This document shows, piece by piece, positions 19,480 to 64,000 of a DNA stretch of 64,000 bases. A program made the translations under genes and the position numbers. The notes beneath the pieces were generated by a model. It saw only the letters and a program-made list of their open reading frames with translations. It made no database searches and was not told the DNA's origin. Source of the DNA: Mya arenaria (Eukaryota > Mollusca > Bivalvia > Myida > Myidae); assembly GCF_026914265.1 (NCBI RefSeq), contig NC_069126.1, positions 37,823,725 through 37,887,724 on the forward strand, given 5' to 3'. Numbering within the stretch: the stretch's first letter is position 1; the number at the start of each line of letters is the position of its first letter.

Positions 19480-21830
19480 GACTGAATTGAAAACGTTGAA
19501 AAGCACTTCAATAGTCAGCTTATCGAAGCAGCTGAATGCGATAGCAGATTGTTTTGGAGCTTAATTAAATCTAGGAAAAACAAAAGACCATCTGCCTGTA
19601 CCCATCTATTCTACAAAAACACCCCTGTTAGAGAATCAGGCGATATTTTAAAGGTATTTACAAACTATTTTCGCGATGTGTACTCACCTCTTCAATGTGA
19701 ACACTTTGATAACGATTTTAAAAAGCTTGTAGAGGAAAAAGTTAAACAACTAAAAATAAAAAAAACAGTACCGCAAATAGCATTCCAGAAATAAATCCAA
19801 CTATCACTAGCGAAACAATTAAAACGTATATTAAAACGTTGAAAAGGGGGAAGGCCTCATCATACGATGCTATTTTTAATGAACACTTAATATATGGAGG
19901 CGATGCATTGCATAAGGCCCTGGCAACGTTATTCAATACAATAATAATCTCAGGCAAAATTCCAAAAATGTGTAAAAAGGGATTAATTATTCCTGCCTAC
20001 AAAGATATTGGTAAACCAAGAAGTGACCCCGAAAACCATAGACCTATAACGTTATTACCAAATATATATAAACTATTTGAAACAGTCTTACATGACATAA
20101 TTGCAAAATGGGTAAAAGAAACCAACATTGAATTTCCAAACCGACAGCAAAACGCATACCAAAAGAATACAGGAGCAATAACTGCGTATTTTAATTTGCA
20201 AGAATCCATCTATCACAATATTGAGCTCCACAACAAAGTATACGTCGCTATGCTCGACACAAAAATGGCCTTTGACACTGTATGGTTGGATGCAATATTT
20301 TACAAGATTGCAGGACTTGGAATTCAAGGCAAAATTTGGTCGCTTAAAGTTGACACGCACAGTAATATGTATAGTTGTATTATTGCAAACGGTTTAACCT
20401 CCGAGTTCTTTCCCGTGTTGCAAGGTATACGCCAAGGGGGAATTATTTCAACTTGGATATATAATCTGTTCATAAATGGACTCTTAGATTCACTGGAGCG
20501 AAGTGGACAAGGTTTAAATGTTATAAACGTAATAACAAGTAACACTACGTTGGCTGATGACATCGCGTTAGCTGCAATTTCACCAAATGGTCTTCAAAAT
20601 CTACTGAACATTACATACGATTATATATGTAATTATAGATACATAATAAACTCGACAAAAAGTTTTGTAATGGTTTTCGGTGACACTGCCAAAAATAAAA
20701 CGAACATTAATTTCTATCTAGGGCCAAACAAAATTGAACGCACAGATAAAATAAGACATGTAGGTATACAACTAAACGACAAAATGACAGGCAATGATAA
20801 AATATCGGTAGCGTGCAAGAAAGCAGAATCATCGTTCTATTCCTTACTATCGATCAACATCGGAACGTTTCACATCAATCCCCTTACATCAGCATCGTTA
20901 GTGTCAAAAAATTGTATACCAAAACTTCTTTTCGGAACAGAACTCTGGAACAATCTAACAAAATCAAACTGCATGCAATTAGAACGTTTTATACGAATGG
21001 CAGCAAAAACCATTCAACGATTTCCCATTCGAACACGAATCGATATCTGTTTAGCGATGTTAGGCTGGAAACGTATAGAAAGCGAAATAAATTTAAAGAA
21101 GCTTATGTTCCTCGAACGGCTGTGCAATATGCCGACATCGGTGCTTACAAAACAGATCTTCAATAAAAGACTAGCCTTATTTTCTTGCAGAACTGATAAG
21201 TGTATTCAAAAAGGATTTGTTCCTGACATTATAAGAATTTTGTCAAAATACAAGTTATCTGATTTTATTATTAGATATATACAAACAGGAATGTTTCCTA
21301 AAAAGTCAATGTGGAAACGTTAATGCAAAATGTTAGTGTATAATACGGAATTAGACGACTGGAAACTAAGAGTTCAAAGTGACGCAACTTTTTGTCGCTT
21401 CATGCTCCTATATACAAGAATCGAACCGGCCATTATATGGACTTGTGCAAACGATTTTCAATCAAGGCGACATGCTCTTGAAGTTAGTAAACTTTGGATT
21501 GAACCTAGCATATACGAAAATAAGTCAGTTATGTTATGTCACGCGTGTGGCGTTATTATAAATAATGCCGTAAAGCATGTTCTATTTTCATGCAATTTAT
21601 CGTCTGATATTAAAAATAATTTTAAAAATACGCTTTCAGAAAACTTTCCTCACGACATATGTTCGTTGATTTCGTTTGGAAATGAGGAGGCAAAGTTGCA
21701 ATATTTGATTGGAAAAAACATTTAGCTTTCATAGATAAGAAGGTACACAAACATTTTTTGAGAATAGCAATTCACTTTGTCTACAAATGCTTAACTATCT
21801 TGAAAATACATTTCAATTTCAATTAGCATG
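19480..21830 (+). mobile_element. 5'-truncated LINE (non-LTR retrotransposon)
   Basis: The reverse transcriptase domain is recognisable from ASSYDAIFNEHL, ENHRPITLLPNIYKLFETVL, AMLDTKMAFDTVW (motif A), IRQGGIISTWIYN (motif B) and LADD (motif C, usually FADD or YADD). Downstream, CHACG with HVLFSC forms a Cys/His knuckle as in many LINE C-termini. The endonuclease domain is absent, so the copy is truncated at its 5' end. The frame changes at an A-run near 19758-19765, and an in-frame TAA lies at 21321-21323, with the same frame continuing to 21725. It is therefore a dead copy. The clade cannot be fixed by eye. Confidence 0.9.
19839..21323 (+). pseudogene. LINE reverse transcriptase, main open frame
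   Basis: A 494-residue open stretch covers palm and thumb of the reverse transcriptase, with motif A Asp in DTKMAFDTVW and the double Asp in LADDIALAA. The preceding frame (19549-19794, SRLFWSLIKSRKNKRPSA) belongs to the same protein but is offset by one base. The following frame (21330-21725) is in register after a single stop and holds the Cys/His knuckle. Confidence 0.88.
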
Positions 21831-32691: not shown

Positions 32692-32829
32692 ATCAAAAAC
32701 GACAATGCCACGTCAAGCGTCAGCCGATCTTCGTAAGATGACGTTTTCTGAGTGCAGTCTGACGTCATCATCGGAAGCATCTCCAGGATCTGAAATAGTG
32801 ACGTCACCAGCTGGCCACTGCAGTCAGAG
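32692..32829 (+). CDS. hydroxylase exon 1 (putative, contains start)
   Basis: Acceptor TTATTTCAG implies an upstream untranslated exon. The ATG at 32705-32707 opens MPRQASADLRKMTFSECSLT and a Ser-rich tail, ending CAGAG before GTAAGA. It leaves two bases, while exon 2 needs one, so a missing microexon, a one-base error or a wrong assignment are all possible. Confidence 0.45.
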
Positions 32830-35800
32830 GTAAGAATGGCATATATATTTTGATAAGGTAAAACACATGATTAAATCAGACTTCAAGTTACAATATTTTG
32901 CCCACACAGTGAAACGATCGTGTCTCGCTTATGAATAAACTATAAACGATTTTAATTTCACATCTATTTCTATGGAATTGGCTGGTACACAGACTATATC
33001 GAACTATACGATACCGATTGTCTTTTAGCTTACATGAGCATCAAGTGCTCAAGGTGAGCATGTTTGGTCGCCCAATGTCCGTCGTCCAGCGTCAACATTT
33101 TAAAACTTTAAATTTCTTCGGCCCAGACCTTTGGTTTTCAGGTTAACGTTTAAGGGCCACAGTGGCACTCTTGTTAAAAGTATGTCATCATTCCCGCATA
33201 GGCGAATGGCTATTATTCATTGTCTACCTCGGTCGAGATAAACTTCAGTCGCTGCTGGGCCATGCGGAAGCGGGTAACTCGACGCACGTCACTTCCGCCG
33301 GGATGCTTGAGCGCCTGGGGCTGCGGGACCTGCATTTTTACGTGTTGTTCGCACTGTTTGTTTCGTTCTCGCTGTACTGGGGCATCGGGCTGACTTTTGA
33401 CATGTACTTCTATAAGAACGGGAAACACATGGTAAGGGTCGCAACGAAAATATTCTAACTAGCAATGAATAACGTGGTACATGTATCTAAATACGCTACC
33501 ATCAATCGTCGATTCTTACGCCCCTGCAGCATAGGCGATGTGCCGATATTTCAGTTGTCGGTCACCAGACGCGTCGAATAGGTTCGGTCATACACGCCCA
33601 AGGCATAGGGTACCGGTTGTATTAACACTAGTCTAGAGGAATATTCTCTTGCATAAGGATGCCGTGTCGACATGCTTGACTATTTATTTACGATTAAACT
33701 CTTCAGGCAGACACATGGAAGTGCCAGCCAGAGCGGTGGCTGACTCGCGCTCCAACGAGTGGCACGAGTTTCTCTTGGGCTCCTTCAACATGATGCTTGG
33801 CTCAGTGATCTCTGGGATCATCTCGTGTTACATCATGAATGGAGGTACGCTCTTGTGTGTTGAGAATGTTGGATTGGTCAGGGTCGGGGAGTGGAGGGGG
33901 TCATCATGACCGGAGGTACGCTCTTGTGTGTTGAGAATGTTGGAAGGGTCAGGGTCGGGGAAGGGGGGTGCGACATCATAATCGGAGGTAAGCTCTTGTG
34001 TGTTGAGAATGTTGGAAGGGTCAGTGTTCGGGGAGAGGACGGGGGGGGGGGGGGTGTTACATCATTAATGGAGGTACGCTCTTGTGTGTTGAGAATGTTG
34101 TAAAGGTTAGAGTTCTGGGAGGGGTGGGGGGCTGGGCGTCGGTTGTTATATCATGAATGGTGCTACGCGCTTGTGTGTTGAGAATGTTGGAAGGGTCAGG
34201 GTTCGGGGATGGGGGATGCGAGTGTTACATTATGAATGGAGGTACGCGCTTGTGTATTGAGAATGTTGGAAGGGTCAGAGTTCGGGGAGGGGGAGGGGGC
34301 GCGGGTGTTATATCATAACTGGAGGTACGCTCTTGTGTGTTGAGAATGTTGGAAGGGTCAGGGTTCGGGGAGAGAGGAGGCGGGTGTTATATCATGAATG
34401 GAGGTACGCTCTTGTGTGTTGAGAATGTTGGAAGGATCAGGGTTCAGGGTGGGGGATGCGAGTGTTACATCATTAACGTAGGTACACTCTTGTGTGTTGA
34501 GAATGTTGGAAGGGTCAGGGATCGGGGAGGGGGATGCGAGTGTTACATCATGAATGGAGGTATGCTCTTGTGTGTTGAGAATGTTGGAGGGGTCAGAGTT
34601 CGGGGAGGGGGGATACGAGTGTTTCATTATAAATGGAGGTACGCTCTTGTGTGTTGAGAATGTTGGAAGGGTCAGGGTTCGGGGAGGGGGATGCGAGTGT
34701 TACACCATGAATGGAGGTACGCTCTTGTGTGTTGAGAATGTTGGAAGGGTCAGGGTTCGGGGAGGGGGGATACGAGTGTTACATCATTAACGGAGGTACG
34801 CTCTTGTGTGTTGAGAATGTTGGAAGGGTCAGGGTTCGGGGAGGGGAATGCGAGTGTCACATCATGAATGGAGGTACGCTCTCGTGAGTTGAGAATGTTG
34901 GAAGGGTCAGGGTTCGGGGAGGGGGGATACGAGTGTTATATCATTAACGGAGGTACGCACTTGTGTGTTGAGAATGTTGGAAGTGTCAGGGTTTGGGGAG
35001 GGGGGTGCGAGTGTTACATCATGAATGGAGGTAAGCTCTTGTGTGTTGAGAATGTTGGAAGGGTCAGGGTTCGGGGAGGGATGATACGAGTGTTACATCA
35101 TTAACGGAGGTACGCTCTTGTGTGTTGAGAATGTTGGAAGGGTCAGGGATCGGGGAGGGGGATGCGAGTGTCACATCATGAATGGAGGTATGCTCTTGTA
35201 TGTTGAGAATGTTGGAAGGGTCAGGGATCGGGGAGGGGGATGCGAGTGTTACATCATGAATGGAGGTATGCTCTTGTGTGTTGAGAATGTTGGAGGGGTC
35301 AGAGTTCGGGGAGGGGGGATACGAGTGTTTCATTATAAATGGAGGTACGCTCTTGTGTGTTGAGAATGTTGGAAGGGTCAGGGTTCGGGGAGGGGGATGC
35401 GAGTGTTACACCATGAATGGAGGTACGCTCTTGTGTGTTGAGAATGTTGGAAGGGTCAGGGTTCGGGGAGGGGGGATACGAGTGTTACATCATTAACGGA
35501 GGTACGCTCTTGTGTGTTGAGAATGTTGGAAGGGTCAGGGTTCGGGGAGGGGAATGCGAGTGTCACATCATGAATGGAGGTACGCTCTCGTGAGTTGAGA
35601 ATATTGGAAGGGTCAGGGTTCGGGGAGGGGGGATACGAGTGTTATATCATTAACGGAGGTACGCACTTGTGTGTTGAGAATGTTGGAAGTGTCAGGGTTT
35701 GGGGAGGGGGGTGCGAGTGTTACATCATGAATGGAGGTAAGCTCTTGTGTGTTGAGAATGTTGGAAGGGTCAGGGTTCGGGGAGGGATGATACGAGTGTT

Positions 35801-38800
35801 ACATCATTAACGGAGGTACGCTCTTGTGTGTTGAGAATGTTGGAAGGGTCAGGGATCGGGGAGGGGGATGCGAGTGTCACATCATGAATGGAGGTATGCT
35901 CTTGTATGTTGAGAATGTTGGAAGGGTCAGGGTTCGTGGGGGGGGGGGGTGTTATAACATGAATTAAGGTACCCTCTTGTGTGTTGAGAATGTTGGAAAG
36001 GTCAGGGTACAAGGGTCGTGGGTGGTTGTTAAGACGTATAAGTTATCCAGTCAAAGAGCGACAGATGATTTTACGATTAGACGTCAGCTCAAGCGACGAC
36101 GTAAGCGGATTTAAGCCTTGAAAATAAAACAAAATTAAATTTAAGTGACGGTGTACGGGCTACGTGTATTAAGGGGTTGGCGGGGGTGGGTAAGGGGGTA
36201 TTTGGTTACTGAGTTGTTATATAGAGGCGTTGCTTTAGCTTTGGGACTGGATTGCTCCGCTTATGATTGTTTTTTTTACTTGACTGATTATGTGAATGAA
36301 TTAATGTGTAAATGATAGCATTGAAATATTGAACACATATGCATATATAGGTGATGAATACATTGATAACGCGGCTCATGTCGAAGTAAATGAGGACGCC
36401 GATGACAATCAAAAGCTTATTTAACGTAACGCTAGTAGTTACGTTTTCCAACCCATTTCTAAATGTTACAGGCCGGTGCACCCTATACATGGATCCTGGT
36501 CAGTACGGCTGGGCATACCTTCTGCTCTCAATTCCTGTTTTGTTTATGTATGGTGAGGCTGTCAGCTACTATCCACACAGGTTTGTGAACAGGGAAAACA
36601 ACTGTGTGTGCGGTAAAATATGTGCTTCGAATATTTGGTTTTACTAGTATATTGATTTTTGTAGCATTTTCACCCAAGAAGACTTTTGATGAGCAGTGTA
36701 TGTTACAATTTTCAGTCACATCATGTATACATTGTAGCTATAAACTTACTTTATCAAAAAGGAAACTGACGACGAAGCGTGCTGACATCGGCATGAGCTA
36801 CTCGAGGCACGCCTCGAATCCATGTTTATCACATACCCCAAAACCCACATACCTAAACCTTGTTTTACACAGGCTGTTCCACTATCCCTGGTTGTACAAG
36901 AACGTCCACAAGATCCATCACCGGTACGGGAGCCCTACCCTTTACAGCGCGGTAGCCATGCATCCGCTCGATTTCCTGATGTATCAGACCTTTCTTGGCC
37001 TGCCCGCGTTCATCATCCCCCTTCACGCAGGTGAGATCTCGTACTCGTATATCCATGCTACCCGTCACTGTTTCAGTTAAAGCTGCACTCTCACAGTTTT
37101 ACCGATTTGACAACTTTTTATTTATTCGTGTTTGAATGAGCCAATTGTTGCGTCAATATCTGAATACAAGTGATATAAGACTGCTGACAAAAGATTATAT
37201 CGCAGTTTTTTCATACTTCTGTTCGAATGTTTTATGGCTAAAAACGTTTCTAACACTTTTAGAAACATACATCAAACAACAATTTTTGAACAAAAATGTG
37301 TGATCTGATCTTTTGTCAGCAGTCTTGTATCATTGATTTCAAGACATTTACGCAAAATTGGCTCATTCGAAAATAAAAAAAATAAAAAAAAGTTTTAAAA
37401 CGGTCAATCTGTGAGAGGGCAGCTTTAATCCGTGTGACTTAAAGGGTGCAATATACACACTCGCATGTAAGGTGTAAATTTGTAAAAGTCTTATGTGCTT
37501 AGTCCAAAATGTCACGTTTTAAATGTGACCAGGGTGTTGTTGCTATTAAAAGAACATGCTTAGCTTGAAATTGCAATGGTTCAACGTTTTTGGTCAATCA
37601 CGGTGAGTTTGAACAAACGGGTCTCGACTGTATATCATACTTCCGACATGGGCACCATGTGTTAAATTCGTTGGTTACCGTTTATTGAATGATTCAATGG
37701 GACCTGCTTTGTTAATGCTTGCCACGCCTGTGTCAAAGGTACCATGTGTATAAGCTTGTCATGTCTGCACCAAAGGAACCATGTGTAAACCTTATCATGT
37801 CTGCTTCAAATGTAATCATGTGTATAAGCTTGTCATTTCTGCACTATTGATACCATGTGTAAAACTTGTCATGTCTTCACCAAATGTAACCGTGTTTATA
37901 AGCATGTTATGTCAGTGTTGAAAGTAATATGTTTATAAGCTTGTCATTTCTGCACTATTGGTACCATGTGTAAAACTTGTAATGTCTTCACCAAATGTAA
38001 CCATGTTTATAAGCTTGTTATGTCAGTGTTGAAGGTAATATGTTTATAAGCTTGTCATTTCTGCACCAAAGACACCATGCGTATAGATTTGTCACGTCTG
38101 CCATAAAGGAACTATGTGTATAATCTTTGCACCAATGATGTTTAAGGTTGCCATGTCAGCACTATAGTTACCATGCTTGTAAGCTTGTCATCTGTGTGTT
38201 GAAGGTACTTTTTGTATACACTTGTCATGTCTGCACCAAAGCTTCCATGTGTGTACGCTTGTCATGTCTGCATCAAAGGTACTATGTGTATACGCTTGTC
38301 ATGTCTGCACCAAAGCTTCCATGTGTATACGCTTGTCATGTCTGCACCAAAGGTACTATGTGTATACACTTGTCATGTCTGCACCAAAGCTTCCATGTGT
38401 ATACGCTTGTCATGTCTGCACCAAAGGTACTATGTGTATACGCTTGTCATGTCTGCACCAAAGGTACTATGTGTATACGCTTGTCATGTCTGCACCAAAG
38501 GTACTATGTGTATACGCTTGTCATGTCTGCACCAAAGGTACTATGTGTATACACTTGTCATGTCTGCACCAAAGGTACTATGTGTATACGCTTGTCATGT
38601 CTGCACCAAAGGTACTATGTGTATACGCTTGTCATGTCTGCACCAAAGGTACTATGTGTATACGCTTGTCATGTCTGCACCAAAGGTACTATGTGCATAC
38701 GCTTGTCATGTCTGCACCAAAGGTACTATGTGTATACGCTTGTCATGTCTGCACCAAAGCTTCCATGTGTATACACTTGTCATGTCTGCACCAAAGGTAC

Positions 38801-41800
38801 TATGTGTATACACTTGCCATGTCTGCACCAAAGGTACTATGTGTATACGCTTGTCATGTCTGCACCAAAGCTTCCATGTGTATACACTTGTCATGTCTGC
38901 ACCAAAGGTACTATGTGTATACACTTGTCATGTCTGCACCAAAGCTTCCATGTGTATACACTTGTCATGTCTGCACCAAAGGTACTATGTGTATACACTT
39001 GTCATGTCTGCACCAAAGGTACTATGTGTATACACTTGTCATGTCTGCACCAAAGGTACTATGTGTATACACTTGTCATGTCTGCACCAAAGCTTCCATG
39101 TGTATACGCTTGTCATGTCTGCACCAAAGGTACTATGTGTATGCACTTGTCATGTCTGCACCAAAGGTACTATGTGTATACACTTGTCATGTCTGCACCA
39201 AAGCTTCCATGTGTATACGCTTGTCATGTCTGCACCAAAGCTTCCATGTGTATACGCTTGTCATGTCTGCACCAAAGCTTCCATGTGTATACGCTTGTCA
39301 TATCTGCACCAAAGGTACTATGTGTATACGCTTGTCATGTCTGCACCAAAAGTACTATGTGTATACGCTTGTCATGTCTGCACCAAAGGTACCATGTGTA
39401 TACGCTTGTCATGTCTTCACCAAAGGTACCTTGTGTATACGCTTGTCATGTCTTCACCAAAGGTACCTTGTGTATACGCTTGTCATGTCTTCACCAAAAG
39501 TACTATGTGTATACGCTTGTCATGTCTTCACCAAAGGTACTATGTGTATACGCTTGTCATGTCTTCACCAAAGGTACCATGTGTATACGCTTGTCATGTC
39601 TGCACCAAAGGTACCATGTGTATACGCTTGTCATGTCTGCACCAAAGGTACTATGTGTATACGCTTGTCATGTCTGCACCAAAGGTACTATGTGTATACG
39701 CTTGTCATGTCTTCACCAAAGGTACTATATGTATACGCTTGTCATGTCTTCACCAAAGGTACCATGTGTATTCTCTTGTCATGTCTTCACCAAAGGTACC
39801 ATGTGTATACGCTTGTCATGTCTTCACCAAAGGTTCCATGTGTATACGCTTGTCATGTCTGCACCAAAGGTACTGTATGTACAAAGGTACTATGTGTATA
39901 CGCTTGTCATGTCTGCACCAAAGGCACCATGTGTATAGGCTTGTCATTTCTGCACCAAAGCTACCATGAATATAAGCTTGTCATGTCAGAAACTGTTAGA
40001 AATAGCGCCGGTATATTTATCTGTACTCATAATAGATATGATTTAAACTGGGAAACATTATGCACAGTTTTTTTAAAAGTAGAAACTCAGATGAAACAGC
40101 AACATTTTTTTATGATTGTTGCGTTTTTTTCTTTTAATCATGTAAAATAGTGTATTATTGACCTCCTACTTGGTCGCATTGACAATTCTAGGCTTGTTTT
40201 TAGGAACTACGGTATTTGCTGATTTTTGAACCATCTGGTGTCTAGTCCCTTTAAAGGGACGTACATTGACTGCATCTACTGCAGTGAAGATAATCGGCCG
40301 ATTGTTCATTGTTAAAGTTAGGGACGTACATTGATTGCATCTACTGCAGTAAAGATAATCGGCCGATTGTTCATTGTTAAAGTAAGGGACGTACATTGAT
40401 TGTATCTACTGCAGTGAAGATAATCGGCCGATTGTTCATTGTTAAAGTAAGGGACGTACATTGATTGTATCTACTACAGTGAAGATAATCGGCCGATTGT
40501 TCATTGTTAAAGTAAGGGACGTACATTGATTGTATCTACTTCAGTGAAGATAATCGGCCGATTATTCATTGTTAAAGTAAGGGACGTACATTGATTGTAT
40601 CTACTGCAGTGAAGATAATCGGCCGATTGTTCATTGTTAAAGGTAGGGACGTACATTGACTGCATCTACTGCAGTGAAGATAATCGGCCAGTTAAAGTAA
40701 GGGACGTACATTGATTGTATCTACTGCAGTGAAGATAATCGGCCGATTATTCATTGTCAAAGCAAGGGACGTACATTGATTGTATCTACTGCAGTGAAGA
40801 TAATCGGCCGATTGTTCATTCTTAAAGTTAGCAAAGTTGTTAACGGGATTTTTTTTAACTTTAAAATATTTACTGTTTGGAAAAAATAATGCACACGTGT
40901 GATTGGTTGTATTTTTAAACCTTAACAAGGTAACAACGATGTCGTTATCTGAACAACAGGCCCTTATTTAAAAAAAAAATCATTATGTTAAAACTTTTTA
41001 AAAACTTTGTGTATTATTAAACCCAAACACATACTTTATAAAACTAGGTGGAAGGTCCCCGAAGGCTCACTTTAACAACCGCAAACTGGCAATAGATAGG
41101 ATAAAATGTTTTTGCTTGATATCTTTATTATACACATTTGCGCACATTGGTCAGAAATAGGCTCAGGGAGAGCATATGCTTTGATAAGCATATAGAGAGC
41201 TGATTTTTCTACCTTCTTTCACCCTGTGCGAAGGAGTGTATAATAAAACATGAGCCTTATAGAAGGCATGTATGCACACAATACGATCTACTTCACCACA
41301 AATATTTGCAAATACCGCATATCTTATCATCAAAAATGTTTAAACCACATACATCGTGAAACGCTTAAGCCAAAAAACTGGTTTGATTCGGTTACATCCT
41401 TTTCAAGTAGGCATTTCTTATTATACTTTATATAAGAACGCTATTTTCATCATTGGAGAATGGTTTTTAACAATCTTATGTATAAAACGTTAAAGGTTTT
41501 AAACTACATATTAAAACACTTAAAGAAGCACTCTTATTTCCGAATAAGCACTCTTTATTTCCGAATAAGATGTGCCATAATTAATTCATGTTTTAATATA
41601 CCAAAAGGTTGAAAAAAAGATCGAGAACAGTGGTTTCTATGAAGGGTACCGTGTTTAATTTGAAAGAAAGGTGCAGAAAACACGGTATTTTTACCTTATG
41701 AGACGATAATTGATCACTGTAAATCTTTTAGGACCCACCAGTCATTCAATATTTGTGCGTTTTCAGCTGTTTAATACACGGTTACAATCTTGTTAACAGT

Positions 41801-44685
41801 AATTATTAGTTTCCATAAATGCAATATTAAGAAAGTAGTTAAAGGTTTATCACTCAAAATTTATTATTGTTATACATGTGTATGTAACGATTTTAAAAAC
41901 GAGTATTACTTTTTTTCCTTTTTTTAACAAATTGACTATAAAAAAATGTAGGGCCTATTTCGTAGGGAGGGTCGGGTACCCGAACCAAACGTAGTTTAGG
42001 CCTTAACACCGAGAACGGTTGGTGACTGATATAGATGTTGCATTATATTCACCCAACGTTCACTGTACTCATACTTGACAATCTTAATTAAAACTATACT
42101 CTGATAGCAAGCATAGCATACTTAAACATAACATTTCGCGCACGCATGACAGATATGAATACTCCTCTGTTTTTTGATACATTTTTTTTTCAAAAATGAA
42201 CGGTGGTCCATTCCGATATAAACAACAACAACCAAAGAGTTCTCAAATGTATATAAAATGGCAAAAACTCCACTTTCTTACCATTAATACATAATTGGTA
42301 TCAAATAATTCTTAATGTACCATTTTTATAAATAGGTTTTTTTTGCTACCAGTGTAAATCTCTTGTTTTATTGTCATGATTGTAAACAAATGGACAATGA
42401 AACAATGGACCAACGGTTATCATTATGGCATAATGATCCAATGGCAACCATTAAGGCATAATGATCCAACGGCAACCATTATGACATAATGATCCAACAG
42501 CAACCATTATGGCATAATGATCCAACGGCAACCATTATGGCATAATGATCCAACGGCAACCATTATGGCATAATGATCCAATGGCAACCATTATGGCATA
42601 ATGATCCAATGGCAATCATTAAGGCATAATGATCCAACGGCAACCATTAAGGCATAATGATCCAACGGCAACCATTATGGCATAATGATCCAACGGCAAC
42701 CATTAAGACGTAATGGACCAACGGCTACCGTTATGGCATAATGATCCAACGGCAACCATTATGGCATAATAATCCAACGGCAACCATTATGGCATAATGA
42801 TCCAATGGCAACCATTATGGCATAATTATCCAACGGCAACCGTTATGGCATAATGATCCAACGGCAACCATTATGGCATAATGATCCAATGGCAACCATT
42901 ATGGCATAATGATCCAATGACAATCATAAAGGCATAATGATCCAACGGCAACCATTAAGGCATAATGATCCAACGGCAACCATTATGGCATAATGATCTA
43001 ACGGCAACCATTAAGACGTAATGGACCAACGGCTCCCGTTAAGGCATAATGATCCAACGGCAACCATTATGGCATAATAATCCAATGGCAACAATTATGG
43101 CATAATGATCCAATGGCAACCATTATGGCATAATGATCCAACGGCAACTATTATGGCATAATGATCCAATGGCAACCATTAAGGCACAATGATCCAACGA
43201 CAACCATTGTGGCATAATGATCCAACGGCAACCATTAAGACGTAATGGACCAACGGCTACCATTATGGCATAATGATCCAATGGCAACCATTAAGACGTA
43301 ATGGACCAAGGGCTACCATTATAAGGAATGGAAGTTGAGGTGTAAATATTATGGCATAATGATCCAACAATAACCATTATGACGTAATGGACCAACGGCT
43401 ACCATTATGGCATAATGATCCAGCGGCAACTATTAAGACATAATGGACGAACGGCTACCATCATGGCACAATGATCCAATGGCAACCATATAGGCATAAT
43501 GGACTAACGGCTACCACTTTGGCATAATGGACCAACGGCAAACACTATGTTCTATGTATTGGGAAGTGCCCTTGAACACAATAATCGAGGCTGTAAGTTT
43601 GACCCAGTCTAATATTTATTTAAGTGGTGTTTGTTGGCCACTTACTCTACGGCTACTACTACGGCATGATGGACCATTCAGGAATCAAGATGGACGCCGT
43701 CTGGCCCTGGCAACCGTCTTCCATGTTTCACGACGACCATCATAGGTAAGCGGCGTAACGGCTTCCTAACATTGTGATAACGTTACGGGAGCAAACTTAT
43801 AAAACCACGTAACCTAATATTTATTTCGAAACTTTATTAGACCTTTATTGGTCAAATAGGCAACGTGTAATTATTTTTACAAGTAAAACATTTAATTTGT
43901 GAGACTCACAAAATATCTGAATTAAATTAAATTATTTACGGCTTTCAAGTGTCAACATTTCTGCCTCATGATTTATTTAAGAAAGAGCTTTCAAGATTAA
44001 CACTGTACGGATATGAATGGACCGAAAATGCACATATTGATTGCGACCATTTAGATAGTTGGTACCCCTATGTGGTAATAAAGAAATGAAAATCAAAGGG
44101 ATAAGCATAGGTGACAGTATCGATCGAGGATGTTTTAAATTGTTTATACATATATTAGTATACAGTTGAACCCCATTGGCTCAAACTCCCGCGAAAATAC
44201 CTCGAGCTTCAGGAAACTCGAGCCGAGCGAAAATGCTTTCTTTCAGTAAAAATAAATCGGTTCTTTACACTCATTGTGAGCCAACGAGGAACTCGAGCCA
44301 AGCGAGTTCGAGCCAACGAGGTTCGACTGTAAATTTGATAAGAAAATCCCCAAAACTATTTTCAAACATCTTTAATGTAAACACGTATTTTAATGTTGGT
44401 GTTTTCACCATCTCCTGACCGATACTGCCTCCTTTGTGGTCAAGCCCATTAACCGAACGAATACGGTGAGTCAAAATTACGTTATTATCTCCCCTTTTCA
44501 GACACTTCCACTGCAACTTTGGTTTTAACACACTGCTTTTTGACCGGCTACATGGAACGCTTCGGCGTCAAAACCGGAAGTACGGAGAGAAGGTGTTCGG
44601 CGGGCACGGCCGACAGGAAGTAGGGACTGGAAGTGAGGCGCCGTTTCACGAGTATTCCACCAGCAACTTGATTCCGTTCACATAA
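32692..44685 (+). CDS. fatty acid hydroxylase / sterol desaturase superfamily enzyme, seven exons
   Basis: Exons: about 32692-32829 (ATG at 32705), 33202-33431, 33707-33844, 36472-36580, 36873-37030, 43625-43745 and 44502-44685. They give about 354 residues, close to the usual 280-350. The family consists of di-iron ER membrane enzymes that oxidise lipids or sterols with O2. Three histidine boxes are present: HRLFH (split by intron 4), HKIHH and HDDHH, the last followed by HFHCNFG and FDRLHGTLR. Hydrophobic spans include FYVLFALFVSFSLYWGIG, MLGSVISGIISCYIM and AYLLLSIPVLFMY. Exons 4-7 join in perfect phase. The exon 1 to 2 join is off by one base, and exon 3 needs a one-base correction near 33745-33755, so either the assembly has small errors or this copy is decaying. 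The exact substrate cannot be told. Confidence 0.85.
33010..33110 (+). repeat. dispersed repeat fragment in intron 1
   Basis: The phrase TTACATGAGCATCAAGTGCT, then AAGGTGAGCA and GTCCGTCGTCC, is of a kind I recognise as frequent in bivalve introns. It contains a donor-like AAGGTGAGC that is probably unused. Confidence 0.4.
33202..33431 (+). CDS. hydroxylase exon 2
   Basis: Open through EWLLFIVYLGRDKLQSLLGH, LRDLHFYVLFALFVSFSLYW and MYFYKNGKHM, with a strong donor ATG/GTAAGG. It carries the first membrane span. The acceptor CCCGCATAG is the likeliest of several AGs, all of which lie in the same phase. Confidence 0.75.
33707..33844 (+). CDS. hydroxylase exon 3 (one-base frame error)
   Basis: After acceptor ACTCTTCAG the frame that fits exon 2 reads ADTWKCQPERWLTRA, a family-like WKCQP motif. 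The frame that fits exon 4 reads SNEWHEFLLGSFNMMLGSVI and ends CYIMNG. The two meet at about 33745-33755 and differ by one missing base. The exon ends GGAG before GTACGC, and that junction sequence is repeated many times in the following array. Confidence 0.8.
33845..36012 (+). repeat. 78-bp minisatellite copying a splice junction (intron 3)
   Basis: About 28 units. Each has the tail GTGTTACATCATGAATGGAG, matching the last bases of exon 3, followed by GTACGC (variants GTAAGC and GTATGC) and then CTTGTGTGTTGAGAATGTTG. A 706-bp block of nine units is itself duplicated (34358-34790 recurs at 35064-35496). The open frames here are by-products: 78 is a multiple of three. Confidence 0.93.
36013..36471. 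other. rest of intron 3
   Basis: No repeat family or exon recognised between the minisatellite and exon 4. Confidence 0.5.
36472..36580 (+). CDS. hydroxylase exon 4
   Basis: Between AATGTTACAG and GTTTGT. It encodes RCTLYMDPGQYGWAYLLLSI, PVLFMYGEAVSYYPH, and two bases of the Arg that begins the first histidine box. 109 bases, phases fit. Confidence 0.88.
36873..37030 (+). CDS. hydroxylase exon 5 (histidine boxes 1 and 2)
   Basis: Acceptor TTTTACACAG, donor GTGAGA. It encodes LFHYPWLYKNVHKIHHRYGS and AMHPLDFLMYQTFLGLPAFI, completing HRLFH and giving HKIHH, two of the three di-iron ligand clusters. Confidence 0.93.
37077..37428. mobile_element. MITE, AAAGCTGCACTCTCAC family, complete
   Basis: TTAAAGCTGCACTCTCACAG at the left and CTGTGAGAGGGCAGCTTTAA at the right. 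The interior hairpin uses GCTGACAAAAGATTATATCG and the inverse near 37300. It sits 46 bp inside intron 5. Confidence 0.85.
37720..38209 (+). repeat. degenerate units flanking the 37-bp array
   Basis: Phrases such as CATGTGTATAAGCTTGTCAT recur at irregular spacing with small indels, an older, diverged apron of the array that follows. Confidence 0.75.
38210..39985 (+). repeat. 37-bp minisatellite, about 48 units (intron 5)
   Basis: The unit begins GTACTATGTGTATACGCTTG and ends TCATGTCTGCACCAAAG. Three sub-variants (GGTACTATG, GCTTCCATG, GGTACCATG) are interspersed, with CTTCACC replacing CTGCACC toward the right. The unit has no stop in any forward frame, so three overlapping frames of about 590-640 codons stay open. 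They encode the same shifted 37-residue pattern and are not taken as genes. Confidence 0.95.
40253..40832 (+). repeat. 65-bp minisatellite, nine units (intron 5)
   Basis: The unit reads GGGACGTACATTGATTGTAT, then CTACTGCAGTGAAGATAATC, then GGCCGATTGTTCATTGTTAA. One unit is shortened near 40690. Confidence 0.93.
40833..41630. other. intron 5, non-repetitive AT-rich part
   Basis: Nothing gene-like or repetitive recognised. Confidence 0.4.
41639..42005. repeat. dispersed intronic repeat, second locus
   Basis: TATGAAGGGTACCGTGTTTA and the following 300 bp resemble 10098-10760 in the Myb-like gene, showing that the block is mobile. Confidence 0.65.
42400..43545 (+). repeat. 28-bp minisatellite resembling exon 6 (intron 5)
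   Basis: About 40 units of ATGATCCAACGGCAACCATT plus ATGGCATA; a second variant reads ACGGCTACCATTATGGCATA plus ATGGACCA. That variant matches a stretch inside exon 6 (ACGGCTACTACTACGGCATG plus ATGGACCA) at 24 of 28 bases. The array ends about 80 bp before exon 6. Confidence 0.93.
43625..43745 (+). CDS. hydroxylase exon 6 (histidine box 3)
   Basis: Acceptor TTATTTAAG, donor GTAAGC. It encodes VFVGHLLYGYYYGMMDHSGI and KMDAVWPWQPSSMFHDDHH, giving the HDDHH cluster. 121 bases with phases matching exons 5 and 7. Confidence 0.92.
44161..44331. mobile_element. MITE with CAGTTGAACCCCATTGGCTC ends
   Basis: The right end TTCGAGCCAACGAGGTTCGA then CTGTA is the inverse of the left. Same family as 27201-27380. 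It lies in intron 6. Confidence 0.78.
44502..44685 (+). CDS. hydroxylase exon 7 (terminal)
   Basis: Acceptor CCCCTTTTCAG. It encodes HFHCNFGFNTLLFDRLHGTL, RRQNRKYGEKVFGGHGRQ and a tail ending NLIPFT, with stop TAA at 44683-44685. The FDRLHGT motif after the third histidine box is a family signature. Confidence 0.93.
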
Positions 44686-44889
44686 TGAAGACCCGCCAAC
44701 TGTGATTGAAAGAATTCTTTAATTTACAAACGCTATTGTTATATAATTAACTTGTTTAGGTATTATTATTTTGCTTTATTCGTTGTTATCAATATTTTGT
44801 ATAAAAAATAATATTATAAGTTGTGAAGATAGCTCTGGTTCACTATTTAAGTATTAATTGCTAAACAAAATGTTATCTCATTAAGAACC

Positions 44890-45075
44890 CCAAAAGGCAA
44901 ATGTCAACAATAACTAAGTGCTTTGTCCCAGTTTTGGTTCAAGTTCATATGCACCCATACAGGCAACTGTCAACAATAACTTCGTGCGTTGTCCCAGTCT
45001 TGTTTCAAGTTCGAATGCACCCAAGCAGGCAAATGTCAACAATTAGTTCGTGACTAGTCGAAATTTTGTTTCAAA
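44890..45075 (+). repeat. short tandem repeat, three units of about 65 bp
   Basis: GGCAAATGTCAACAATAACT, then GTCCCAGTTTTGGTTCAAGT, then CATATGCACCCA recurs three times with decay, shortly after the hydroxylase stop codon (possible 3' UTR or flank). Confidence 0.75.
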
Positions 45076-45198
45076 GTTCATAGTTTCTATCATTACCATT
45101 ACTTTACCATCATTGATTAGTTTTGCGCTTTATATAGTAATATAGGACTCAATTTGTTTTACATGAATATCATTGATAGGAAGCACAAATGCAATTGT

Positions 45199-45290
45199 TA
45201 CGAAGCTAGCTTAAGTCTTGGCACTTCTGGTTGTACGGGCTATGACAATTTTTGCAAGAATTTATTCGAGCCTACCAGAAACTGAATGTG
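45199..45290 (+). repeat. dispersed hairpin unit, copy 1
   Basis: Contains GTACGGGCTATGACAATTTT and TTCGAGCCTACCAGAAACTG, shared with 46868-46985 and 47104-47217. The outer arms here are diverged. Confidence 0.65.
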
Positions 45291-45300
45291 TCATATTTAA

Positions 45301-45416
45301 GTTGGCATCACGTGTTTTAAGTTGGCATCACGTGGTTTAAGTTGGCATCACGTGGTTTAAGTTGGCATCACGTGGTTTAAGCTAGCATCACGTGTTGAAG
45401 TTGGCATCACGTGCTT
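45301..45416 (+). repeat. 20-bp CACGTG array, six units
   Basis: GTTGGCATCACGTGGTTTAA repeats six times, the last units with small changes. Each unit has an E-box CACGTG palindrome. Whether any factor binds is unknown. Confidence 0.93.
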
Positions 45417-45939
45417 GAATAGTAAAATTAGTTAATTGTAGTGTTTAAATATTTAATATGTGTTACTAAGTTCAAATTGATTTTCAGTGATGTGGTTAAT
45501 TGCACAGGGGCAGGGTTCATATAGAATAATAGTATAAACAATGTTGTTAGTTATTTCTAGTAACAATTCCCACGTCATTGTTAATAAGCCTTGGAATATT
45601 TATTTATCTTGTTTGGGCGGAAGGGGCGTAGTCATGGGGTGTAGCATTACTACGCACCCTGTCCCTGTTGTTAACCGCATATGAATAATTTATTTATGTC
45701 TTTTTTGTTGGAAAATATTTGTTTCCAGTGAATTTATTTGCACGTATGTTGTATTACTATGTGCATCTGCTCAACGTTAGATAATTTAAGGTATAGATAT
45801 ATGTAAAATAGGTTAGTTAGGGCCCAACCAAAAGTGTCCTATAGTGATTACCCTGTTCGTCCGTCTGTACTTCCGTCTGTCTGTCCTTTCGAAAAAAAAT
45901 AGGTGGTAGAGGAAATGCTATCTCATAGTAATGTAATCT

Positions 45940-46380
45940 CTATCAGGTAGTAGGGTAATTCGCTTTTAGGTGTCAGGGCAATTTGCCATCGGCAGGTAGG
46001 GCAATTTGCTATCAGGTGGTAGGGTAATTTGCTATCAACTAGTAAGGGATTCTGGTATCTAGTAGTAGGGTAATTTGCTATCAAGTAGTAGGGTAATTCG
46101 CTATCAAGTAGTAGGGTAATTCGCTATCAAGTAGTAGGGTAATTCGCTATCAAGTAGTAGGGTAATTCGCTATCAAGTAGTGTGGGAATTCGCTATCAAG
46201 TAGTAGGGTAATTCGCTATCAAGTAGTGTGGGAATTCGCTATCAAGTAGTAGGGTAATTCGCTATCAAGTAGTAGGGTAATTCGCTATCAAGTAGTAGGG
46301 TAATTCGCTATCAAGTAGTAGGGTAATTCGCTATCAAGTAGTAGGGTAATTCGCTATCAAGTAGTTGGGGAATTAGTTTT
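45940..46380 (+). repeat. 23-bp minisatellite
   Basis: The unit GGTAATTCGCTATCAAGTAG plus TAG is nearly perfect at 46080-46370 and diverged at the left. A GTGTGGGAATTC variant recurs. Confidence 0.93.
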
Positions 46381-54814: not shown

Positions 54815-57800
54815 ACGTAACTGCTGCCTGTCGTGCTCACAGGCGTCTGACTAATTTAGGCTAAGTAGCACTACGACAGGCGTCTGACTCATATAGGCTA
54901 AGTAGCCCTACGGCAGGCGTCTGACTCATATATAGGCTAAGTAGCACTACAACAGGCGTCTAACTCATATAGGCTATGTAGCACTATGACAGGCGTCTGA
55001 CTCATATGGGATAAGAAGCACTACGACAGGCGTCTGACTCATATAGGCTTAGTAGCACTACAACAGGCGTCTGACTCATATAAGCTATGTAGCACTACGA
55101 CAGGCGTCTGACTCATATAGGCTAAGTAGCACTACGACAGGCGTCTGAGTAGCACTATGACAGGCGTCTGACCCATATAGGCTAAGTAGCACTACGACAG
55201 GCGTCTGACTCATCTAGGCTAAGTAGCACTACGACAGGCGTCTGACTCATAGGCTAAGTAGCACTACGACAGGCGTCTGACCCATATAGGCTTAGTAGCA
55301 CTACGACAGGCGTCTGACTCATATAGGCTAAGTAGCATTACGACAGGCGTCTGACCCATATAGGCTTAGTAGCACTACAACAGGCGTCTGACTTATATAG
55401 GCTAAGTAGCACTATGACAGGCGTCTGACCCATATAGGCTAAGTAGCACTACAACAGGCGTCTGACTCACATAGTCTAAGTAGCAGTACAACAGGCGTCT
55501 GACTCACATAGGCTTAGTAGCACTTCGACAGGCGTCTGACTCACATAGACTAAGTAGCACTACAACAGGCGCCTGACTCATATAAGCTATGTAGCACTAC
55601 GACAGGCGTCTGACTCATATAGGCTAAGTAGCACTACGACAGGCGTCTGACCCATATAGGCTAAGTAGCACTAAGACAGGCGTCTGACCAATATAGGCTA
55701 AGTAGCACTATGACAGGCGTCTGACCCATATAGGCTAAGAAGCATAGGCTAAGTAGCACTACGACAGGCGTCTGACTCATATAGGCTAAGTAGCACTACG
55801 ACAGGCGTCTGACTCATATAGGCTAAGTAGCACTACGACAGGCGTCTGAGTAGCACTACGACAGGCGTCTGACTCCTTTAGGCTTAGTAGCACTACAACA
55901 GGCGTCTGACTCATATAGGCTTAGTAGCACTATGACAGGCGTCTGACTCATATAGGCTAAGTAGCACTATGACAGGCGTCTGACCCATATAGACTAAGTA
56001 GCACTACGACAGGCGTCTGACTCATATAGGCTAAGTAGCACTACGACAGGCGTCTGCCCATATCGGCTAAGTAGCACTACTACAGGCGTCTGCCCCATAT
56101 AGGCTAAGTAGCACTTCGACAGGCGTCTGACTCATATAGGCTATGTAGCACTATGACAGGCGTCTGATTCATATAGGCTAAGAAGCACTACGACAGGCGT
56201 CTGACTCATATAGTCTATGTAGCACTATGACAGGCGTCTGACTCATATAGGCTAAGAAGCACTACGACAGGTGTCTGACCCATATAGGCTAAGAAGCACT
56301 ACGACAGGCGTCTGACTCATATAGGCTTAGTAGCACTACGACAGGCGTCTGACTCATATAGGCTAAGTAGCACTACGGCAGGCGTCTGACTCATATATAG
56401 GCTAAGTAGCACTACAACATGCGTCTGACTCATAAAGGCTAAGTAGCACTACGACAGGCGTCTGACTCATAGAGGCTAAGTAGCACTACAACAGGCGTCT
56501 GACTCACATAGGCTAAGTAGCACTACGACATGCGTCTGACCCATATAGGCTAAGTAGCACTACAACAGGCGTCTGACTCACATAGTCTAAGTAGCACTAC
56601 AACTGGCGTCTGACTCACATAGGCTTAGTAGCACTTCGACAGGCGTCTGACTCACATAGACTAAGTAGCACTACAATAGGCGCCTGACTCATATAAGCTA
56701 AGTAGCACTACGACAGGCGTCTGACTCATATAGGCTTAGTAGCACTTCAACAGGCGTCTGACACATAACGGCTAAGTAGCACTACGACAGGCTTCTGACT
56801 CAGATAGGCTAAGTAGCACTACGACAGGCGTCTGACTCATATAGGCTAAGAAGCACTACGACAGGCGTCTGACCCATATAGGCTAAGTTGCCCTACGACA
56901 GGCGTCTGACCAATATAGGCTAAGTAGCACTATGACAGGCGTCTGACCCATATAGGCTAAGTAGCACTATGACAGGCGTCTGACTCATATAGGCTAAGTA
57001 GCACTACGACAGGCGTCTGCCCTTATCGGCTAAGAAGCACTACGACAGGCATCTGCCCCATATAGGCTAAGTTACAGCACTACGACAGGCGTCTGACTCA
57101 TATAGGCTAAGAAGCAATACGACAGGTGTCTGACCCATATAGACTAAGAAGCACTACGACAGGCGTCTGACTCATATAGGCTTAGTAGCACTACGACAGG
57201 CGTCTGACTCATATAGGCTAAGTAGCACTACGGCAGGCGTCTGACTCATATATAGGCTAAGTAGCACTACAACAGGCGTCTGACTCATATAGGCTAAGTA
57301 GCACTACGACAGGCGTCTGACTCATAGAGGCTAAATGGCACTACAACAGGCGTCTGACTCACATAGGCTAAGTAGCACTACGACAGGCGTCTGACCCATA
57401 TAGGCTAACTAGCACTACAACAGGCGTCTGACTCACATAGTCTAAGTAGCACTTGAACAGGCGTCTGACTCACATAGGCTTAGTAGCACTTGGACAGGCG
57501 TCTGACTCACATAGACTAAGTAGCACTACAACAGGCGCCTGACTCATATAAGCTAAGTAGCACTACGACAGGCGTCTGACTCATATAGGCTTAGTAGCAC
57601 TTCAACAGGCGTCTGACTCATAACGGCTAAGTAGCACTACGACAGGCGTCTGACTCATATAGGCTAAGTAGCACTACGACAGGCGTCTGACTAATATAGG
57701 CTATGTAGCACTACGACAGGCGTCTGACCCATATAGGCTAAGTTGCCCTACGACAGGCGTCTGACCAATATAGGCTAAGTAGCACTACGACAGGCGTCTG

Positions 57801-60800
57801 ACCCATATATGCTAAGTAGCACTATGACAGGCGTCTGACTCATATAGGCTAAGTAGCACTACGACAGACGTCTGACTCATATAGGCTAAGAAGCACTACG
57901 ACAGGTGTCTGCCCCATATAGGCTAAGTTACAGCACTACGACAGGCGTCTGACTTATATAGGCTATGTAGCACTATGACAGGCGTCTGACTCATATAGGC
58001 TAAGAAGCACTACGACAGGTGTCTGACCCATATAGGCTAAGAAGCACTACGACAGGCGTCAGACTAATATAGGCTTAGTAGCACTACGACAGGCGTCTGA
58101 CTCATATAGGCTAAGTAGCACTACGACAGGCGTCTGAGTAGCACTACGACAGGCGTCTGACTCCTATAGGCTTAGTAGCACTACAACAGGCGTCTGACTC
58201 ATATAGGCTTAGTGGCACTATGACCGGCGTCTGACTCATATAGGCTAAGTAGCACTATGACAGGCGTCTGACCCATATAGGCTAAGTAGCACTACAACAG
58301 GCGTCTGACTCACACAGTCTAAGTAGCACTACAACAGGCGTCTGACTCACATAGGCTTAGTAGCACTTCGACAGGCGTCTGACTCACATAGACTAAGTAG
58401 CACTACAACAGGCGCCTGACTCATATAAGCTAAGTAGCACTACGACAGGCGTCTGACTCATATAGGCTTAGTAGCACTTCAACAGGCGTCTGACTCATAA
58501 CGGCTAAGTAGCACTACGACAGGCGTCTGACTCATATAGGCTAAGTAGCACTACGACAGGCGTCTGACTCATATAGGCTTAGTAGCACTACGACAGGCGT
58601 CTGACTCATAGAGGCTAAGTGGCACTACCACAGGCGTCTGACTCACATAGGCTAAGTAGCACTACGACAGGCGTCTGACCCATATAGGCTAAGTAGCACT
58701 TCAACAGGCGTCTGACTCACATAGTCTAAGTAGCACTACAACAAGCGTCTGACTCACATAGGCTTAGTAGCACTTCGACAGGCGTCTGACTCATATAGAC
58801 TTAGTAGCACTACAACAGGCGCCTGACTCATATAAGCTAAGTAGCACTACGACAGGCGTCTGACTCATATAGGCTAAGTAGCACTTCAACAGGCGTCTGA
58901 CTCATAACGGCTAAGTAGCACTACGACAGGCGTCTGACTCATATAGGCTAAGTAGCACTACGACAGGCGTCTGACTCATATAGGATAAGTAGCACTACGA
59001 CAGGCGTCTGACCCATATTGGCTAAGTTGCCCTACGACAGGCGTCTGACCAATATAGGCTAAGTAGCACTATGACAGGCGTCTGACCCATATAGGCTAAG
59101 TAGCACTATGACAGGCGTCTGACTCATATAGGCTAAGTAGCACTACGACAGGCATCTGCCCCATATAGGCTAAGTTACAGCACTACGACAGGCGTCTGAC
59201 TTATATAGGCTATGTAGCACTATGACAGGCGTCTGACTCATATAGGCTAAGAAGCACTACGACAGGTGTCTGACCCATATATGCTAAGAAGCACTACGAC
59301 AGGCGTCAGACTAATATAGGCTTAGTAGCACTACGACAGGCGTCTGACTCATATAGGCTAAGTAGCACTACGACAGGCGTCTGAGTAGCACTACGACAGG
59401 CGTCTGACTCCTATAGGCTTAGTAGCACTACAACAGGCGTCTGACTCATATAGGCTTAGTAGCACTATGACCGGCGTCTGACTCATATAGGCTAAGTAGC
59501 ACTATGACAGGCGTCTGACCCATATAGGCTAAGTAGCACTACAACAGGCGTCTGACTCACACAGTCTAAGTAGCACTACAACAGGCGTCTGACTCACATA
59601 GGCTTAGTAGCACTTCGACAGGCGTCTGACTCACATAGACTAAGTAGCACTACAACAGGCGCCTGACTCATATAAGCTAAGTAGCACTACGACAGGCGTC
59701 TGACTCATATAGGCTAAGTAGCACTTCAACAGGCGTCTGACTCATAACGGCTAAGTAGCACTACGACAGGCGTCTGACTCATATAGGCTAAGTAGCACTA
59801 CGACAGGCGTCTGACTCATATAGGCTTAGTAGCACTTCAACAGGCGTCTGACTCATCAAGTCTAAGTAGCACTATGTACAACAGGCGTCTGACTCATATA
59901 GGCTAAGTAGCACTACGACAGGCGTCTGACTCATATAGGCTAAGTAGCACTACGACAGGCGTCTGACCCATATAGGCTAAGTTGCACTACGACAGGCGTC
60001 TGACCAATATAGGCTAAGTAGCACTATGACAGGCGTCTGACCCATATAGGCTAAGTAGCACTATGACAGGCTTCTGACTCATATAGGCTAAGTAGCACTA
60101 CGACAGGCCTCTGCCCTTATCAGCTAAGTAGCACTACGACAGGCATCTGCCCCATATAGGCTAAGTTACAGCACTACGACAGGCGTCTGACTCATATAGG
60201 CTATATAGCACTATGACAGGCGTCTGACTCATATAGGCTATGAAGCACTACGACAGGTGTCTGACCCATATAGGCTAAGAAGCACTACGACAGGCATCTG
60301 ACTCACATAGGCTTAGTAGCATTACGACAGGCGTCTGACTCATATAGGCTAAGTAGCACTACGACAGACGTCTGACTCATATAGGCTAAGAAGCACTACG
60401 ACAGGCGTCTGAGTAGCACTACAACAGGCGTCTGACTCCTATAGGCTTAGTAGCACTACAACAGGCGTCTGACTCATATAGGCTTAGTAGAACTATGACA
60501 GGCGTCTGACTCATATAGGCTTAGTAGCACTATGACAGGCGTCTGACTCATATAGGCTAAGTAGCACTACGACTGGCGTCTGCCCATATTGGCTAAGTAG
60601 CACTACTACAGGCGTCTGACCCATATAGGCTAAGTAGCACTACGACAGGCGTCTGACTCATATAGGCTATGCAGCACTATGACAGGCGTCTGACTCATAT
60701 AGGCTAAGTAGCACTACGACAGGCGTCTGACCCATATAGGCTAAGAAGCACTACGACAGGCGTCTGACTCATATAGGCTTAGAAGCACTACGACAGGCGT

Positions 60801-63800: not shown

Positions 63801-64000
63801 ACTTAGTAGCACTACAACAGTCGCCTGACTCATATAATCTAAGTAGCACTACGACAGGCGTCTGACTCATATAGGCTTAGTAGCACTTTTACAGGCGTCT
63901 GACTCATAACGGCTAAGTAGCACTACGACAGGCGTCTGACTCATATAGGCTTAGTAGCACTACGACAGGCGTCTGACTCATATAGGCTAAGTAGCACTAC
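54815..64000 (+). repeat. 37-bp satellite, about 245-250 units, continues past window
   Basis: The unit reads CGACAGGCGTCTGACTCATA then TAGGCTAAGTAGCACTA. Sub-variants (ACCCATA, TTCAACAGG, GGCTTAG, ATAACGGC, TTACAGCAC, TATGTACAAC) recur in the same order, giving higher-order periods of 1247 bp (57921 to 59168, 58061 to 59308) and 1303 bp (60581 to 61884, 60991 to 62294). Stops in all frames rule out coding. Confidence 0.97.

Follow-up and report, generated by a model that had tools for sequence, protein, structure and literature searches.

A minisatellite that repeats the exon 3 end and splice donor of a fatty acid hydroxylase gene in Mya arenaria

Introduction

How does a tandem repeat come to carry the end of an exon together with the splice donor that follows it, and does such an array alter the product of its host gene? 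This question is raised by a 64-kb stretch of the Mya arenaria genome (64,000 nucleotides of contig NC_069126.1; hereafter the window). The window holds a seven-exon gene on the + strand, from approximately 32705 to 44685, whose third intron opens with a minisatellite. A query of exons 2–5, mixed from the window copy (W) and a sibling locus (C), scored 48.5 bits against Pfam PF04116 FA_hydroxylase (cut-off 31), which places the host gene over the curated cut-off for the fatty acid hydroxylase superfamily (PF04116). An initial annotation of the window had proposed that the array was seeded by the end of exon 3 and might produce proteins of variable length. We consider it probable that the array is a neutral minisatellite which arose by tandem duplication over the exon 3/intron 3 junction, promoted by a G-rich tract, and that the additional donors it contains (decoys) are by-products.

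The end of exon 3 is the first unit of the intron 3 array

The features that define the array in W are as follows.

33825..36008, + strand: minisatellite in which 27 units, mostly of 78 or 79 bp, follow unit zero (28 in all), from Tandem Repeats Finder and the donor scan
33825..33844, + strand: final 20 bases of exon 3 (unit zero), which supply the exonic part of the repeat, 20/20 against the decoy consensus
33845..33850, + strand: true donor of intron 3, GTACGC, with weak predicted U1 pairing (-5.7, U1 pairing estimate)
33880..36008, + strand: G-rich tracts of the units, with a G-quadruplex motif in 20/28 W units
33907..33909, + strand: first in-frame stop past the true donor, upstream of all decoy donors, from frame reading
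34527..35938, + strand: head-to-tail duplication of 9 units (706 bp) within the array, 34527-35232 versus 35233-35938, 703/706 (99.6%) identical

Tandem Repeats Finder called the array at 33825-36008, and its letters were also read directly. The head-to-tail units are within the size range of 6–100 bp that passages of PMC12771815 give for minisatellites. With a search pattern fixed on the donor and the core following it, and up to 9 mismatches in 32 positions allowed, 28 donor positions were located between 33845 and 35969. These comprised the true donor and 27 decoys (33916 onward), in agreement with the more than two dozen decoys that had been described to follow GTACGC, and all but one of the decoys retained GT (26/27; the exception, at 34163, was CT). 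The unit had been described as 78 bp long and hence a multiple of three. That length was found in 11 of the 27 steps between donors, but ten steps were of 79 and six of other lengths, and only 9/27 decoys in W would add a multiple of three.

The exon 3 end (33825-33844) and the consensus of the 27 decoy units were the same at 20/20 bases, and the best rival 20-mer preceding a GT on the + strand outside 33701-36100 agreed at 12/20 (n=3562). Chance resemblance between the exon 3 end and the array is excluded, and the identification of the exon end as unit zero was upheld. The copied segment starts at about 33825, as the ten exon bases upstream of this position agreed with the array at just 3/10. 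In the unit alignment, the exon 4 acceptor was absent from the copied part because each unit spans only the last part of exon 3 and the first part of intron 3. A junction-seeding test compared nine arrays (four in the gene, including that of intron 3, and five outside; first 1200 bases each) with 14 junctions. Among these 126 pairs, the intron 3 array and the exon 3 end scored 105 (z 42), and four other array-junction pairs with z > 3 had scores of 21–26 (z 3.3–4.5).

A single base within the exon end differed between loci. Window position 33840 (exon position -5) is T in W, as in the array consensus, and C in B and C, the two sibling loci of W. A synonymous (AAT/AAC) single-base conversion from the array into the exon is possible.

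Sibling loci with 28, 16 and 2 donors

A search of the same genome identified exon 3 at three loci: W (C5:37857431), B (C5:33337010, 4.5 Mb upstream of W) and C (C5:37741524, 115 kb upstream of W). W has 28 donors, B has 16 and C has 2, as counted at the three paralogous loci of one genome. All of the B decoys (15/15) retained GT. The occurrence of siblings with 2, 16 and 28 donors in one genome makes the finding sharper than first written. When a 150-base query of the array consensus was searched against the genome there were at least 43 matches, and the 43/43 matches listed were confined to the W, B and C loci, on which ground a dispersed satellite or mobile element was rejected as the source of the array.

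Unit zero, and a unit 1 with a similarly altered left part, were common to W, B and C. Between W and B, reciprocal best units were found in the same order (W4/B2 94%, W5/B3 93%, W6/B6 94%, W27/B15 87%), which indicates that expansion of the array predates the W/B split, and one-to-one partners were missing for many of the middle units. In introns 1–2 and the intron 3 tail, C had 61 unique changes, compared with 31 for B and 19 for W; assuming equal rates, these counts point to C as the earlier branch. The two units of C may represent the original state.

The view that the array takes in the exon-intron junction, starts from it and has grown by tandem duplication was supported. The three loci differ in donor number, and the duplication of the 9-unit block was recent, given the identity of its halves at 703 of 706 positions. 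The G-rich tract lies approximately 30 nt into the intron and was copied along with the units. By a simple motif count, G-quadruplex motifs were present in 20/28 units of W, 14/16 of B and 1/2 of C. The 64-kb window as a whole contained 21 such motifs, all of them on the + strand; the array holds 20/21 and the other is at 36173. Shuffling of the W array (200 runs) produced a mean of 2.19 motifs and a maximum of 7.

The host gene is damaged in W

The exons of the host gene in W are listed below.

32705..32829, + strand: exon 1 of W, 125 bp versus 208 bp in B and C; 83 bp missing, frameshift
33202..33431, + strand: exon 2, 230 bp, its frame lost in W downstream of the exon 1 deletion
33707..33844, + strand: exon 3, 138 bp (136 in the siblings), with 2 additional bases near 33746-33747
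36472..36580, + strand: exon 4, missing from sibling B
36873..37030, + strand: exon 5, with the first histidine boxes; window 36868-37030 by itself scored 41.5 bits against PF04116 FA_hydroxylase
43625..43745, + strand: exon 6 (MDHSG...HDDHH), ends by eye from splice signals
44502..44685, + strand: exon 7, the last exon, with the stop codon, ends by eye from splice signals

The frame of W from its first ATG stops in exon 2, as 83 bp of exon 1 are gone and 2 bases were gained in exon 3. These lesions in exons 1 and 3 are private to W when compared with both siblings. Unique changes in exons 1–3 were also highest in W (23, versus 9 in B and 5 in C), which would fit relaxed constraint in W. In C, by comparison, the frame was uninterrupted through exon 5. 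Exon 6 and exon 7 of C each had one open frame, and their joins, to exon 5 and to each other, were judged by eye. Of the three loci, only C looks intact at the sequence level. Exon 4 was absent from B, and exons 6 and 7 of B were not found within 33.32-33.37 Mb.

Comparison of window 32705-44685 with G000:C5:37740371-37749440, the C locus, indicated that W is a mosaic. Its introns 1–2 and intron 3 tail were nearer to B, whereas exons 4–7 and introns 4 and 6 were nearer to C (0–1.8%). Substitutions between W and C were 1.8% in exon 4, 1.7% in intron 4, 0.6% in exon 5, 0% in exon 6, 0.7% in intron 6 and 0% in exon 7, and 5.8% in the remainder of intron 3. BLAST of W against C over 41162-46374, arrays included, gave 95.7%. 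Based on the low divergence of exons 4–7 from C (0–1.8%), these exons of W may have been homogenised with C recently, by gene conversion or by a second duplication.

Relatives of the gene were also sought more widely. Scans of prokaryotes and viruses returned 14 and 3 pattern matches, respectively, with 0 confirmed, and a PDB sequence search returned four matches (E 0.5–2.1), none of them a named hydroxylase. In family members of the same genome on C3, C8 and C13, conservation of the residues at the exon end could not be followed, as this part was too diverged there or the exon was missing from the stretch examined.

Decoy use would not lengthen the protein

Pairing energies were calculated with the letters of the U1 end. 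Predicted U1 pairing was weaker for the true exon 3 donor than for the other four donors of exons 1–5 in W (-5.7 versus -9.6, -8.5, -7.2 and -11.1 kcal/mol), and none of the decoys of B and C paired more strongly than -5.7. An early stop had been noted in the first unit, and such a stop was located in frame 62 nt past the true donor, before all decoys. The number of decoys whose use left the frame open through exon 5 was 0/27 in W and 0/1 in C (B, in which exon 4 is missing, was left out).

These results did not bear out the suggestion of length-variable splicing in 26-residue steps, and W itself carries the damage in exons 1 and 3. Stepwise lengthening of the protein by decoys was rejected, because most donors are 78 or 79 nt apart and the frame was lost with every decoy tested. 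Stepwise longer proteins are excluded for W by the reading frame and are not supported in C. Decoy use in W is physically plausible from the predicted pairing and could only lower output.

Over all 46 units, the mean departure from the consensus was 0.10 for the exon-like part and 0.039 for the donor (-3 to +6). It was 0.034 for the 29 intronic positions that follow and 0.20 for the remaining, G-rich part. There was no sign of selection on the donors, because they were kept no better than their neighbouring bases (0.039 versus 0.034).

Origin of the array and alternative explanations

The most economical account of these data would be a neutral, G-rich minisatellite that was born at the junction and has no evident protein role. 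About 20 exon bases and about 58 intron bases across the hydroxylase exon 3/intron 3 junction would have been duplicated in tandem, and the G-rich, often quadruplex-capable tract probably favoured slippage or unequal exchange. Duplication would first have occurred before W, B and C separated, and the large expansion would be common to W and B, while growth by whole multi-unit blocks seems to have gone on recently. The decoy donors would be by-products and, where tested, are predicted to give only frameshifted or stopped messages. Both copies with long arrays (W and B) are damaged genes, and the short array is in the apparently intact C. Junction content, copy numbers, shared units, the block duplication, gene damage and frame consequences were read from the sequence, and from these we infer the role of the G-rich tract, the direction from exon to array and the absence of function.

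Several observations weigh against this account. Three W decoys (33988, 35031 and 35737) are GTAAGC, for which the predicted pairing is -9.6 versus -5.7 kcal/mol for the true donor, and the initial annotation had described some decoys (GTAAGC) as nearer to consensus than the real site. A protein truncated at its N-terminus may be made from W, in which exons 4–7 are 0–1.8% from C; such a product is possible as the W frame is open from an exon 3 ATG through exon 5. Unit 1 matches the exon end only partly in all three loci. The unit zero of W has no G-quadruplex motif, although those of B and C have one, and the evidence for a G-quadruplex role consists of motif counts, from which we infer it. 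In addition, the relation of W, B and C is unrooted, being that of three loci with no outgroup, and the array of C could be contracted rather than ancestral. Contraction is conceivable since unit 1 of C, its second unit, combines a left part like that of unit 1 with a right part like that of the last unit. The sequence data do not decide between an ancestral and a contracted C.

We also considered whether the array regulates its gene, in that its many donors would bind U1 and divert splicing to unproductive messages, with array length tuning expression (a splicing sink). Such a role is in keeping with the GT kept by 26/27 decoys in W and 15/15 in B; however, this retention at best equals that of the adjacent intronic bases. 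The weakness of GTACGC relative to the four other W donors of exons 1–5 and to three of the decoys, and the stop produced by every W decoy and by the C decoy, would likewise suit regulation, but the intact gene C has one decoy. Finally, both long-array copies are both broken copies. Three loci are too few for a correlation, however, and the long-array copies also carry lesions that disrupt them in other parts of the gene. On balance we regard regulation by the array as unlikely. We would give slightly less credence to the array as a self-enlarging splice poison, in which each unit would add a decoy beside the weak true donor, send splicing towards stopped messages and so help to silence its gene copy. 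If this highly doubtful proposal were true, array length would track paralogue death, with 2 donors in the intact copy and 16 and 28 in the broken copies.

The identity of the exon end to the array consensus might equally be expected had the intronic minisatellite come first and the donor moved into it, such that exon 3 now ends in the first unit. The T at base -5 of W, shared with the array consensus but not with B and C (both C), is consistent with this order of events. Against it, C, with two units only, shares this exon end, which is in frame with its exon 4, and the exon end prolongs what by eye is one hydrophobic stretch (FNMMLGSVVSGIISCYIM); we consider the reversed direction very improbable. 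It also seems unlikely that the three loci reflect an assembly artefact or uncollapsed haplotypes, in which case the copy numbers would not be those of separate loci. Long arrays and G runs are difficult to assemble, W resembles C closely in its 3' part, and other family members occur in pairs that are 97–99.9% identical (aligned pieces) and 0.2–2.2 Mb apart. However, introns 1–2 of W, B and C differ by 6–14%, the loci carry different lesions and are 115 kb and 4.5 Mb apart, and their unit variants are not the same.

The 2, 16 and 28 copies of one donor behind one exon in one genome form a natural series on how the spliceosome chooses among identical donors. The series also bears on whether minisatellite growth over a splice junction harms the gene. 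If the decoys are ignored, exon context or the choice of the first donor would override donor number; if they are used, repeats would have a simple route to silence duplicated genes.

Comparison with known systems

The minisatellite of human IFI6 (6-16, G1P3) sits at an exon-intron junction and has a shorter unit. It is the subject of a paper by Turri, Cuin and Porter from 1995 (Nucleic Acids Research [NAR] 23:1854), whose title credits it with multiple splice donor sites. According to passages of a paper citing that work (PMC4526556), two downstream repeat units of IFI6 serve as donors and there are three mRNA species. The W array resembles this case more closely than any other known to us, a likeness of anatomy and not a claim of functional membership. 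Both are minisatellites whose units offer splice donors and, as in IFI6, the W array begins at the exon-intron junction (20/20) and its units hold the donor (26/27 with GT). The two differ in that repeat donors are reported to be used in IFI6, whereas those of W are known from sequence alone, no tested decoy keeps the frame and W is damaged. Readable messages of the kind represented by the IFI6 isoforms were not obtained with any W (0/27) or C (0/1) decoy.

Passages of PMC2812944 describe human paralogues in segmental duplications with variable internal minisatellites, some of them at exon-intron boundaries, where they alter gene structure. In those paralogues, as in W, B and C, minisatellite number differs between recent copies. 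The human cases in these passages come from transcript evidence, with gains of coding sequence and new introns among them, whereas the W, B and C data are genomic only and imply no new intron. Tandem duplication over an intron-exon boundary is also a described route of intron gain, for which passages of PMC4974935 cite ATP2A1 and a 24-bp case in fission yeast. A boundary-crossing tandem duplication multiplies splice signals both there and in W. In the route described in those passages the result is a new intron, whereas W has copied the donor side only, and the unit alignment revealed no additional intron having a donor and acceptor of its own.

With regard to instability, passages of PMC2673046 report that CEB1 arrays, which form quadruplexes, are unstable in yeast when Pif1 is lacking. 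CEB1 and the W array both have G-rich tandem units with quadruplex motifs; according to these passages, work in yeast and in vitro demonstrated the instability of CEB1 and its quadruplex formation, whereas for W there are motif counts only. The passages of PMC3045353 on intronic repeats of the sea bream myostatin-2 gene mention no copied donor. Among the matches listed by a search of open-licence literature (titles and abstract openings), none described this gene or array.

Other arrays and neighbouring features

Intron 5 contains three more minisatellites, at 37734-39987, 40254-40828 and 42410-43549 (units of 37, 65 and 28 bp, respectively). In the junction-seeding test these gave weak scores only against the exon junctions (21–26 where z > 3, versus 105 for the intron 3 array).

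Four FA_hydroxylase pairs (L058/L059, L065/L066, L068/L069 and L070/L071) on C3 and C8 were 97–99.9% identical (aligned pieces) and 0.2–2.2 Mb apart; they represent either recent segmental duplication or uncollapsed haplotypes. A match to exon 7, 91% identical, was located 16 Mb away at G000:C5:21746097-21746192 (-), with no other exon nearby among the matches listed.

Elsewhere in the window, a satellite-like array of 37 bp (111 bp) extends for more than 9 kb, from 54839 to 64000, and reaches the right window edge. An open frame of 525 aa at 19746-21323 resembled, by eye, the reverse transcriptase part of a putative non-LTR (long terminal repeat) retrotransposon.

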